A stretch of DNA of 33,525 nucleotides from an uncultured Acidimicrobiales bacterium (GTDB taxonomy: Bacteria; Actinomycetota; Acidimicrobiia; Acidimicrobiales; SZUA-35). The notes under the pieces are model-generated. The model was not told the DNA's origin. It did no database searches and saw only the letters and a program-made list of their open reading frames with translations. The translations under genes were made by a program, and so were the position numbers. This document shows, in pieces, positions 12,602-15,776 of the stretch; position 1 is the first letter of the stretch; each line of letters begins with the position of its first letter. Location of the stretch: positions 1-33,525 of the forward strand of contig CALHBU010000009.1 of assembly GCA_937930655.1 (NCBI GenBank). Reading direction: 5' to 3'.

Positions 12602-13128
12602 GCTGGCTCCGGGTGCCGAATACCGAGTCGGTCAAGATGAGCCCGTTCTCGTGATCGCATCAGCGCTGTCTCGTCCGGTTCGGCATGGTCATGCCCTAAC
12701 ACGTGGAGAACACCGTGAATCACCAGAAGTTGGAACTCACCGTCAATGGAGCCGACGTGGCTGGAAGCTTGGGCTTCGGCCACTTCGGGGCAAAGGACAA
12801 CATCACCAAGCATGGGCTCACCATCGAGCTCATCCCATTTGAATCCGCTGTCGGGCTCGGCACCGGCCAATGGGCCGGTTGCATCCAGCGGAAACGACAG
12901 GACGTCGGTGGGGCCGGTATGCCCCATGTGCTCCTCGTTGAGCTCGGCCATCGCCTCTTTGTCGACCAGGTGAAGGTCGAGCTGACCGGCGGAAACACCT
13001 TCGCCAGTCAGGACCGACAGTGCCAACTCACACAGTGAGTGGAGATCGATGTCTGAGTCGGCGGCGTCGCGGTTCTCGGTACCGGTGACGGTGACCTTGC
13101 CGCTGGTTGCTGATGGAGGCTCGCTCAT
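12598..13128 (-). CDS. ybeY: Endoribonuclease YbeY (16S rRNA 3' maturation)
   Basis: 176 aa. YbeY is a zinc-dependent endoribonuclease involved in 16S rRNA 3'-end processing and ribosome quality control. The signature HGVLHVLGHDH gives the three zinc-ligand histidines His138, His142 and His148. Upstream motifs include LNEEHMGHTGPTDVLSFP (64-80) and LGDVVLCPEVA. A 25-residue Ser/Thr/Asp-rich N-terminal extension precedes the conserved fold. Its ATG overlaps the phoH stop and its stop overlaps the corC start, each by 4 bp, so translational coupling is likely. Confidence 0.96.
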   Translation of the reverse strand: MSEPPSATSGKVTVTGTENRDAADSDIDLHSLCELALSVLTGEGVSAGQLDLHLVDKEAMAELNEEHMGHTGPTDVLSFPLDATGPLAGAEPDSGFKWDELDGEPMLGDVVLCPEVAEAQASSHVGSIDGEFQLLVIHGVLHVLGHDHAEPDETALMRSRERAHLDRLGIRHPEPA

Positions 13129-14075
13129 TTGGAGGGCAGGTCTTCGTGCCGGGAGTAGGCGTCAACGATGTCCTGAACAATCCGATGACGCACGACATCC
13201 TTGCTACCCAACTCGATGTAGCCCATGCCATCGATCCCCTCGAGGATCTTCCAGATCCCGCGCAGACCACTGCGGCCCCCGGGCACGTCGACCTGGGTTT
13301 GATCACCGGTGACAACGACTTTGGAGTTAAAGCCGATGCGGGTGAGGAACATCTTCATTTGTTCCGGGCTGGTGTTCTGAGCCTCGTCGAGAATGATGAA
13401 GCTGTCGTTGAGCGTGCGGCCACGCATGAAGGCCAAGGGAGCGACTTCGACCGCGTTTTTCTCGAACAGCTTCGCCATACCTTCGGCGCCAACCATGTCG
13501 TGCAGGGCGTCATACAACGGCCGCAGGTAGGGGTCGACTTTGGACATGAGATCGCCGGGCAGGTAGCCCAGCCGTTCGCCGGCCTCCACCGCGGGCCGGG
13601 TGAGAAGAATCCGCTCGACTTCCTTGGCCTGAAGTGACCGGACGGCGGTGGCCACTGCCAACCAGCTCTTGCCAGTACCGGCGGGGCCAACACCGAAGGT
13701 GACGATGTTCTTGCGGATGGCGTCGATGTAACGCTTCTGGCCCGCGGTTTTGGGACGAACAGCTTTGCCCCTGGAGGTGGTGAGGATGCGATCGGTGAGG
13801 ACCTCGGACGGGCGAACGTCTGCCCCCACCATCTCGACAGCACGGCGAACGGTGGCCGATTCGATGGCTTGTCCCCGCTCGACCACGAGCACCAACTCTT
13901 CAATGACTTTGGATGCCTGGATCGCCTCGGGACCATCGACGGTGATCTGGTTGCCCCGAACATGGACAGTGGCATCGAACGCGCCTTGCACAACCCGCAG
14001 GTACTCGTCCCGTTCGCCGAGCAGGCCAACCATCGTCTGGTTGCTGGGAACGCTGATCTTCACCGGTGATGTCAT
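13125..14075 (-). CDS. PhoH-like ATPase (YbeZ type)
   Basis: 316 aa. Cytoplasmic P-loop ATPase of the PhoH family; the YbeZ type usually sits next to ybeY and is thought to act with it in RNA metabolism. An N-terminal KH-like region (about 1-100) is followed by the ATPase domain with Walker A GPAGTGKS (130-137), LLTRPAVEAGERLGYLPGD and Walker B FIILDEAQN (226-234). The ATG at 14075 has GAGG five bases ahead. It is the first gene of the phoH-ybeY-corC-era operon, so the operon promoter probably lies in 14076-14182, shared with the divergent pseudokinase gene; I could not assign -35/-10 boxes there with confidence. Confidence 0.93.
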   Translation of the reverse strand: MTSPVKISVPSNQTMVGLLGERDEYLRVVQGAFDATVHVRGNQITVDGPEAIQASKVIEELVLVVERGQAIESATVRRAVEMVGADVRPSEVLTDRILTTSRGKAVRPKTAGQKRYIDAIRKNIVTFGVGPAGTGKSWLAVATAVRSLQAKEVERILLTRPAVEAGERLGYLPGDLMSKVDPYLRPLYDALHDMVGAEGMAKLFEKNAVEVAPLAFMRGRTLNDSFIILDEAQNTSPEQMKMFLTRIGFNSKVVVTGDQTQVDVPGGRSGLRGIWKILEGIDGMGYIELGSKDVVRHRIVQDIVDAYSRHEDLPSK

Positions 14076-14182: not shown

Positions 14183-15241
14183 GTGGACAAGCCAAGAGGC
14201 ACCGGATTTCAGCAAGAGCAGGGCCAGCAGGCGGTGACCATGGGATTGACCGAGCATGGTCAACCGGTGGTAGTCAAGCGATTCGACTCGGCGGTCGGTG
14301 ACTCCGGCCAAGGCGAGGCTCGGTGGTTGGGGGCGGCCAATCACCCGGGGATCGTGCGCCTGGTCAAGCGGGTCAACGATCCGCCGCTCACCGTCACCGA
14401 ACATGTGGCGGGCCCGACCCTTCGCACTGCGAGCCTCGAACCGGGCCGGGCGGCGCATGTCCTTTCGGTGGTGGCAGACACCCTGGCCGATCTCCACCAG
14501 ATGGACATGTTTCACGGTGCGGTCAATCCGGATCACATTCTGGTAACCACAGACCAGCCGGACCAGGCCGGTGCTGTCCTCTGCTCCCCGCTTCCCTCCG
14601 ACGACCGCACCGCCGATGCGAACGGTCTCGGTCGGTGCATCGAGTGGCTGGTTGCCGAGTGGGAGGCACAGAAGCTCAGCGTTGCCGCAGACTGGTCCCG
14701 GCTTGCCGCCAAACTCGCATCCGAACCACCCCTCGACCTGCGCCGGGCGGCCCATCAGCTCGGGGCGCTCGCTCCACCACTCTCGCCTTCTCCAACACGG
14801 TCGCCTTCTGCAACACGGTCCCCAACAGCTTCCCCAACACCGCCGTCGGTCGACGAGCAACGACCAGCCCGCCTCCAGAAGCTGGCGGCACTTGTGATCT
14901 TGGCCCTAGCTCTTCTGCTGGTCGGTCGAATGGTGGTGAGTGGCCAGGAAGGGGCGGTGGCCGGTGCTCGCCTCCCGGCTGATCAGGGCGTCTTTGCCGT
15001 TGGCCAAGCGGCGGACGTCGTGGTCGCCCTCCCCCTTCCATGCCCCGGTCAACCACACGCACTGCTCCTCGATCGAGCGACCGACACCGTCTGGACCTTC
15101 GAGGCGATCCACGACGGCGCGATGGGCTCACCAATGACCCGGGTATCGGGGGCGACGATGCTGGTGGTGGAAGCGGCGTCGCCCTGCCCTCGGGCATGGG
15201 TCAGCGGCCCGGCAGGAGCAATCGAGCTCGACTGGCCCTAG
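14183..15241 (+). CDS. Membrane pseudokinase-like protein with extracytoplasmic domain
   Basis: 352 aa from a GTG start with AGGGG just upstream. Residues about 20-195 look like a worn-down Ser/Thr protein kinase: VVVKRFD (Lys32), a helix with Glu45, NHPGIVRL, the hinge-like LTVTEHVAGPTL, and HGAVNPDHIL at 111-120 where kinases have H-R-D-x-K-P-x-N-I-L. The catalytic Asp is Ala113, the Lys is Asn115, and no DFG motif follows, so phosphotransfer is unlikely. A Ser/Pro/Thr linker (200-222), one membrane helix (234-252) and an outer domain of about 100 residues with two cysteines (287, 335) follow. The layout recalls PknB-type receptors and the MviN/FhaA pseudokinase system of actinobacteria. 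It sits between phoH (divergent) and bldD (convergent, 7 bp apart). A regulatory scaffold or sensor is my inference. Confidence 0.7.
   Translation: MDKPRGTGFQQEQGQQAVTMGLTEHGQPVVVKRFDSAVGDSGQGEARWLGAANHPGIVRLVKRVNDPPLTVTEHVAGPTLRTASLEPGRAAHVLSVVADTLADLHQMDMFHGAVNPDHILVTTDQPDQAGAVLCSPLPSDDRTADANGLGRCIEWLVAEWEAQKLSVAADWSRLAAKLASEPPLDLRRAAHQLGALAPPLSPSPTRSPSATRSPTASPTPPSVDEQRPARLQKLAALVILALALLLVGRMVVSGQEGAVAGARLPADQGVFAVGQAADVVVALPLPCPGQPHALLLDRATDTVWTFEAIHDGAMGSPMTRVSGATMLVVEAASPCPRAWVSGPAGAIELDWP
14786..14821 (+). repeat. 18-bp tandem repeat in pseudokinase linker
   Basis: Two units, 14786-14803 and 14804-14821, share CCTTCT-CAACACGGTC with two mismatches. In frame they encode the repeated SPT/SAT-R linker just before the membrane helix. 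Confidence 0.85.
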
Positions 15242-15248
15242 TCGAAGG

Positions 15249-15776
15249 TCAGCGAGGAGCGGGAGAGCTCGTCAGACCAAGATCGGAGAGACGGTCGACG
15301 GCGCTGTCGAAGTCGACGCCAAGGATGCAGGCGACGGCCCGAAGATCGTCCTGGCGTACGGTGAGAACCCGTCCGTTGAAGTCCTGGCGCTGCACCTGAA
15401 TCATCGCCAGGTAACGGCCCAGCATCTCGCCTTCGGGTCCGGCGACCGAATCCAGCTGGGTGAGGTCCAGTGAGACACCGGCACGACCCGTCTGTTCGGT
15501 GAGATCGACCGTGCCAGGGGTGATGCCAACGGTGGTGGCACGGGGCAGGAGTTGGTCGACGGGCACGCTGTAGAACAGCGCCAGCCGCTCGAGGCGGGGG
15601 ACGGAGATGGCCCGTTCGCCACGCTCGTAGGCGCCAAGCACCGATGCTTTGAATTCTTGATCTGAGGTGGCTTCGACGTCCTGCAGGGACAGTCTCTTCT
15701 GACGACGTATAGCCCGAAGCCGTTCGCCTACGCGTCTTCCGTAGGCGGAGCTGGCCTCGTTTTCGTCCTCGCCCAT
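15249..15776 (-). CDS. bldD: BldD-type c-di-GMP-responsive XRE-family transcriptional regulator
   Basis: 175 aa. The N-terminal helix-turn-helix (about 12-72, with RLRAIRRQKRLSLQDVE, GAYERGERAISVPRLERLA and FYSVPVDQLLP) matches Streptomyces BldD throughout. The C-terminal domain carries LGRYLAMIQVQRQDFNGRVL and the c-di-GMP signature R-x-D-x8-R-x-x-D: Arg130-Gln131-Asp132, eight residues, then Arg141-Gln142-Asp143-Asp144. In Streptomyces, BldD bound by tetrameric c-di-GMP represses sporulation genes; here the targets are unknown, since no developmental genes are in the window. The ATG has AGGGAG four bases upstream. It converges on the pseudokinase gene with only 7 bp between stops. A TAGATA -10-like box lies at 15890-15895 (minus strand) but has no matching -35. 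Confidence 0.88.
   Translation of the reverse strand: MGEDENEASSAYGRRVGERLRAIRRQKRLSLQDVEATSDQEFKASVLGAYERGERAISVPRLERLALFYSVPVDQLLPRATTVGITPGTVDLTEQTGRAGVSLDLTQLDSVAGPEGEMLGRYLAMIQVQRQDFNGRVLTVRQDDLRAVACILGVDFDSAVDRLSDLGLTSSPAPR

Follow-up and report, generated by a model that had tools for sequence, protein, structure and literature searches.

Gene and domain architecture

The window (the whole stretch of DNA analysed, 33,525 nucleotides) carries at 14183-15241 on the forward strand a reading frame that is open throughout and encodes a kinase-like membrane protein of 352 amino acids. The start codon is ambiguous, as GTG 14183 is possible and homologues start near GTG 14234 or ATG 14240. The gene converges on bldD, with 8 bp between the two. 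The features of the locus are the following:

13125..14075, minus strand: phoH, divergent neighbour and one edge of the putative ancestral pilus locus
14183..15241, plus strand: pseudokinase gene, 352 aa, start possibly at 14234 or 14240
14225..14782, plus strand: predicted cytoplasmic kinase-fold domain, residues about 15-200, without activation loop (AlphaFold2 model, Foldseek, profile)
14276..14278, plus strand: Lys32, the beta-3 (VAIK) lysine, kept and invariant in 33 members
14315..14317, plus strand: Glu45, the alpha-C glutamate, kept in at least 90% of members
14513..14536, plus strand: HGAVNPDH (residues 111-118) replacing HRDLKPEN, with His111 and His118 invariant
14582..14590, plus strand: Cys134-Ser135-Pro136 replacing xDFG, with Ser135 at the DFG Asp position (profile alignment)
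14771..14869, plus strand: Pro/Ser/Thr-rich linker, residues 197-229 (composition; pLDDT mostly below 50)
14873..14935, plus strand: single membrane helix, residues about 231-251 (hydropathy, model)
14951..15238, plus strand: outer all-beta domain, residues 257-352 (96 residues), with Cys287 and Cys335 (model, profile)
15249..15776, minus strand: bldD, convergent neighbour and the other edge of the putative ancestral pilus locus

A kinase-like layout had been proposed in a preliminary description of the sequence, and structure prediction followed by fold comparison returned kinases as the best matches. The AlphaFold2 model, predicted from a shallow alignment of 7 rows (the window protein and six relatives), had a mean pLDDT of 71.4; in the kinase part the values for ten-residue blocks were mostly 80-97 over residues 40-60 and 80-200, with dips near residues 61-80 and 121-130. 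When the model was compared with the PDB by Foldseek, the best 50 matches were all protein kinases or kinase-domain-containing proteins, with PknG at the top (E 5.4e-8), and a profile built from 33 members agreed by matching PDB kinases at E 4.2e-13. The prediction and the profile thus support a two-lobed protein kinase fold for residues about 15-200. The HMM search against Pkinase gave a divided answer: the window protein itself stayed at 13.6 bits, under the gathering cut-off of 31.7 bits for PF00069, whereas some family members scored E 9e-9. The other Pfam scores of the window protein were also sub-threshold (Kdo 18.9, PK_Tyr_Ser-Thr 16.3 and APH 15.2 bits), and as a single query in a scan of the genome contigs it gave no match.

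The linker, single membrane helix and two-cysteine domain of the preliminary description were all found. The 33 residues of the linker include 10 Pro, 7 Ser and 4 Thr, and the helix has a mean Kyte-Doolittle hydropathy of 2.74 over 19 residues, suggesting a bitopic protein with the kinase fold in the cytoplasm and the beta domain outside. The outer domain, modelled as all-beta with pLDDT 80.7 (again from a shallow alignment), is related to the 'GDWxCDGxxTPALLRPSTGEVFVFDxW' domain of relatives that are linked to Tad pilus genes (see below). A Foldseek search of this domain against the PDB gave no confident match (best E 0.77). FG-GAP_3 of Pfam was matched weakly by two of 27 members (best E 0.016) and repeats in genome G045 matched the outer-domain profile at E 1.5e-8, which hints at a distant sequence link toward FG-GAP-like repeats.

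Catalytic positions

Lys32, Glu45 and the HGAVNPDH motif are present as first described, with Ala113 at the position of the catalytic Asp of HRD and Asn115 at that of the catalytic-loop Lys. To this list can be added the replacement of the metal-binding Asn by His118, which had been omitted. DFG is likewise absent, its Asp being replaced by the Ser that follows Cys134. The activation segment is missing because the alpha-F Asp145 comes only 9 residues after Pro136, and the glycine-rich loop is also missing. The protein therefore has none of the HRD Asp, metal-binding Asn, DFG Asp and activation segment of an active Ser/Thr kinase. A sequencing or alignment error would have been the explanation if close homologues had been intact, but in the orthologues of the family the HRD Asp, the metal-binding Asn and the DFG Asp are absent and the activation loop is deleted as well. 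As the same residues are lost at the same locus in 25 other genomes of the family, the loss is not a matter of chance, and a kinase fold whose catalytic motifs are lost in all close orthologues is that of a pseudokinase. Judged from these residues, the window protein has presumably lost phosphotransfer, while the retained Lys and Glu could still allow nucleotide binding.

In the alignment of 33 rows Lys32, His111, His118 and Asp145 are invariant, and Glu45, Gly112 and Cys134 are kept in at least 90% of the rows. The conservation of His118, at the position of the metal-binding Asn, and of Cys134 was thus observed next to motifs of a dead kinase. A metal site formed by these two residues was considered and dropped, since in the profile alignment Cys134 stands immediately ahead of the position of the DFG Asp.

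The locus within the family

In the family of the window (f1), 29 of the 39 genomes were matched; three of the matches (L027-L029) are ordinary kinases and not orthologues. Besides the window, 25 orthologous loci were mapped, and as far as their flanks can be seen all of them sit between phoH and bldD. Full-length intact reading frames occur in at least 18 genomes. Seven orthologues from genera g2 and g9 (L020-L026) stop before the membrane helix and have lost the outer half. The gene is dispensable, because it is absent from four genomes of the family (G002, G025, G026 and G033), where 83-115 bp separate phoH from bldD, and broken in one genome of the same genus as the window (G021, locus L016), where a TGA stop lies inside the match and reflects either decay or an assembly error. 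At the loci L123, L128, L131 and L133 the gap between phoH and bldD contains no gene at all, so that the loss is clean. In G015 a highly divergent reading frame occupies the gap. Most of the genomes surveyed are drafts, and some contigs end near the locus.

Between the closest pairs dN was 0.30-0.57 and dS 1.1-3.2; dN well below dS indicates purifying selection, although the ratio is rough because dS is near saturation. In this family the pseudokinase stands alone between phoH and bldD, and the pilus operon and the LysM gene that accompany it elsewhere are gone. A search of f1 for the linked CpaE gave nothing beyond weak matches in five of the 39 genomes, and none of the eight f1 genomes that were tested for the linked CpaF had an orthologue of it (best 173 bits, to other systems). 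By both markers the lineage of the window itself has no linked Tad operon.

The Tad/Flp pilus operon across the order

In a profile search of 296 genomes of the class, all confident homologues came from the same order, and the loci of the order were mapped with the window, Tad and LysM proteins. The sample consisted of 21 loci, with regions of at most 14 kb around 20 of them and 18 kb around L109. Ten of the loci (L061, L062, L066, L067, L070, L074, L078, L079, L080 and L109) lie within or beside a Tad operon, arranged as RcpC, CpaE, CpaF, TadB, TadC and TadE-like genes, the pseudokinase and a LysM protein. Relatives of the window protein are thus encoded in or beside Tad operons. In eight loci the LysM gene comes after the pseudokinase and no Tad genes are adjacent, and in the remaining three (family f13) the CpaE-pseudokinase pair alone is left of the operon. 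Among the pilus labels, Pfam and NCBIfam support CpaF (T2SSE; TadA family, under NCBI's cut-off) and TadC (T2SSF), support for TadB and TadE is weak, and CpaE and RcpC are named from general P-loop and SAF/FlgA-type resemblance together with gene order. The fusion of CpaE and pseudokinase in L054 was left out of account, as there are masked bases at the join.

Genes of the series bldD-rsmE-dnaJ-hrcA flank many loci of the order. The complete layout is seen in L109, where lepA-hrcA-dnaJ-rsmE-bldD is followed by the LysM gene, the pseudokinase and the Tad operon on the opposite strand, and then by phoH-ybeY. The window shares the edges of this locus, minus the operon and the LysM gene. It is because the pilus operon between phoH and bldD was lost that the pseudokinase adjoins bldD in f1. 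The gene neighbourhood in Acidimicrobiia gave its strongest context outside the window, in the Tad pilus operon and not in bldD as had been suggested.

In 15 loci of the order the gene after the pseudokinase encodes a membrane protein that has a LysM domain at its C-terminus (for example L062 5923-6732, L063 6283-7143 and L067 7844-8548); this gene is missing at the f1 locus.

Across the order the catalytic residues and the activation loop are also lost, and the membrane helix and outer domain are retained in most orthologues. In families with adjacent Tad genes the linked CpaF has an orthologue that scores 466 to 1034 bits, and in f4, f7, f11 and f12 it is also present, elsewhere in the genome. 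In f13 it was not found (best 145 bits), and the f13 protein is without the first strands of the N-lobe, including the Lys. Both f1 and f13 have lost the linked CpaF, and so the families without the machine carry the most reduced forms of the protein. The f13 pairs are situated near suf genes (L068 6515-8817, L071 21-2338 and L077 4860-7168), and the pseudokinase copy of L077 still reads HRD.

Relatives outside the class

When 296 genomes of the phylum were searched with a profile built from the outer domain, 13 were matched, five of them by strong matches outside the class. All five are kinases adjoining the same Tad genes (L103-L107). Their motifs differ in state: HRDVKPSN and DFG in L103, HRDVTPGN and DFG in L105 and HRDVKPAN and DLG in L104, while the HRD Asp is lost in L107 (HGHVKPAN, with DFG) and in L106 (HGGLKPAN, with DLG). 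In a tree of kinase domains the pseudokinases form one clade (100/99), and a clade with the Tad-linked kinases was neither supported nor rejected (p-AU 0.42). The argument for descent from intact kinases lies in the shared outer domain and operon, and the simplest reading of these comparisons is that a Tad-linked receptor kinase lost its activity in the ancestor of Acidimicrobiales.

Discussion

It is likely that the window protein is a non-catalytic bitopic scaffold or sensor, a former receptor Ser/Thr kinase of a Tad/Flp pilus locus that was orphaned in this family by loss of the operon. The non-catalytic receptor scaffold of the preliminary description is borne out in so far as the kinase fold is predicted, the catalytic residues and activation loop are lost in orthologues, and the helix and outer domain are mostly kept. 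The ancestor would have been a receptor Ser/Thr kinase encoded with the pilus operon, and phosphotransfer would have disappeared (with the HRD Asp, catalytic Lys, metal ligands and activation loop) while the relatives were still in that operon. The operon would then have been lost in the family of the window and the pseudokinase alone retained between phoH and bldD. That the fold and the pocket residues are retained when the catalytic residues and the activation loop have gone suggests docking rather than catalysis. The kinase fold may thus give a partner in the cytoplasm, in the ancestor a Tad component, a surface to dock on, and the outer domain may contact something beyond the membrane. The best candidate for the ancestral partner would be the CpaE/MinD-like ATPase, because f13 keeps just the CpaE-pseudokinase pair. 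In the lineage of the window the present partner must be something outside Tad or belong to a different Tad system.

The loss of the outer half in g2 and g9, of the whole gene in four genomes and of an intact frame in G021, together with the absence of the linked CpaF from the f1 genomes tested, could also mean that the protein has had no function since the pilus operon was lost and is a decaying remnant on its way out. We consider this unlikely, since the reading frame is intact and full-length in so many genomes of the family, dN is well below dS, and Lys32, His111, His118 and Asp145 are invariant despite low overall identity. It is rather improbable that the protein still binds nucleotide as a ligand-gated switch, or that it even has an unconventional way of transferring phosphate; the conservation of Lys32, Glu45 and the pocket positions His118 and Cys134 would fit such a switch, but the catalytic Asp, the metal-binding Asn, the DFG Asp, the glycine-rich loop and the activation loop are all missing. 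That the pseudokinase feeds an envelope signal to BldD, as first proposed from the adjacency of the two genes in this family, is very doubtful, since the genes are convergent and adjacent due to operon loss, in most other families a LysM gene, hemW or several kb lie between them, and each of the four genomes from which the pseudokinase was seen to be lost still has bldD.

Two secretion machines are known to have a membrane pseudokinase as a hub, and the origin of such proteins has so far been obscure. The most similar is EssB/YukC of type VIIb secretion, a bitopic part of the secretion machine with an N-terminal cytoplasmic pseudokinase domain and a shortened activation loop (PMC9600267, PMC12599244), which acts as an interaction hub and does not bind ATP (PMC9600267). 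Compared by description, the scaffold proposed here shares with it the topology, the pseudokinase domain and the shortened activation loop. The two differ in that the VAIK motif is largely lost in YukC whereas the Lys is kept in the window protein, and neither the partner machine nor the outer domain is alike. The neighbours of the pseudokinase are housekeeping or Tad genes and not those of a type VIIb secretion locus. TraF of pIP501 type IV secretion, a membrane pseudokinase with two soluble domains, has been likened to YukC and is essential for conjugation (PMC13037476); it resembles the window protein, again by description, in its topology, while its machine is that of conjugation in Bacillota.

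Among actinobacterial proteins, the ActPs3 pseudokinases, including MviN of Mycobacterium tuberculosis, have degraded motifs, a deletion of the activation loop and a helix after the kinase domain (PMC12599244), all of which are found in the window protein. The group is defined by complete degradation of the catalytic motifs, the beta-3 Lys included (PMC12599244). In contrast, the window protein keeps this Lys, which is invariant among its relatives, has no MurJ part and derives from a Tad locus, and it is set apart from ActPs3 on this description. Receptor Ser/Thr kinases of the PknB type share the order of kinase domain, membrane helix and outer domain, but their catalytic residues are those lost here and the outer domain of the window protein is not PASTA. 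TscD and TshM are kinase-like membrane components of type VII secretion variants, and TshM genes lie beside Tad genes (PMC11217815). TscD differs in its retained active site. TshM was set aside as an identity for the window protein, since it has no outer domain (PMC11217815). It is also part of a WXG100 secretion cluster, and no sign of such a cluster was noticed in the loci mapped here.

In a limited literature search, resting in part on titles and abstracts, we found no paper in which a kinase or pseudokinase is described as belonging to the Tad system, and the nearest was TshM (PMC11217815). The locus suggests that the Tad pilus loci of Actinomycetota include a component that has gone unrecognised. 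We give an even chance to the broader proposal that actinobacterial Tad machines have an undescribed kinase-fold membrane component, which would have started out as a catalytically active receptor kinase and turned into a structural pseudokinase in Acidimicrobiales. If this is true, Tad would be the third kind of envelope machine with such a part, after T7SSb and the Gram-positive T4SS, and the window would represent a late stage in which the part outlives its machine. The genomes present the locus in graded states, from a kinase with intact motifs beside Tad genes through a partly degraded kinase beside Tad genes to a pseudokinase inside the operon, and further to a pseudokinase with only the LysM gene, an orphan, an orphan without its outer half and, finally, a locus from which the gene is gone. 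These states make the path from enzyme to scaffold testable.

The BldD homologue of the window scored 142.8 bits against the NCBIfam BldD equivalog, under the cut-off of 250. It contains RQD-FNGRVLTV-RQDD, which we take to fit the c-di-GMP signature RxD-X8-RxxD of Streptomyces BldD.
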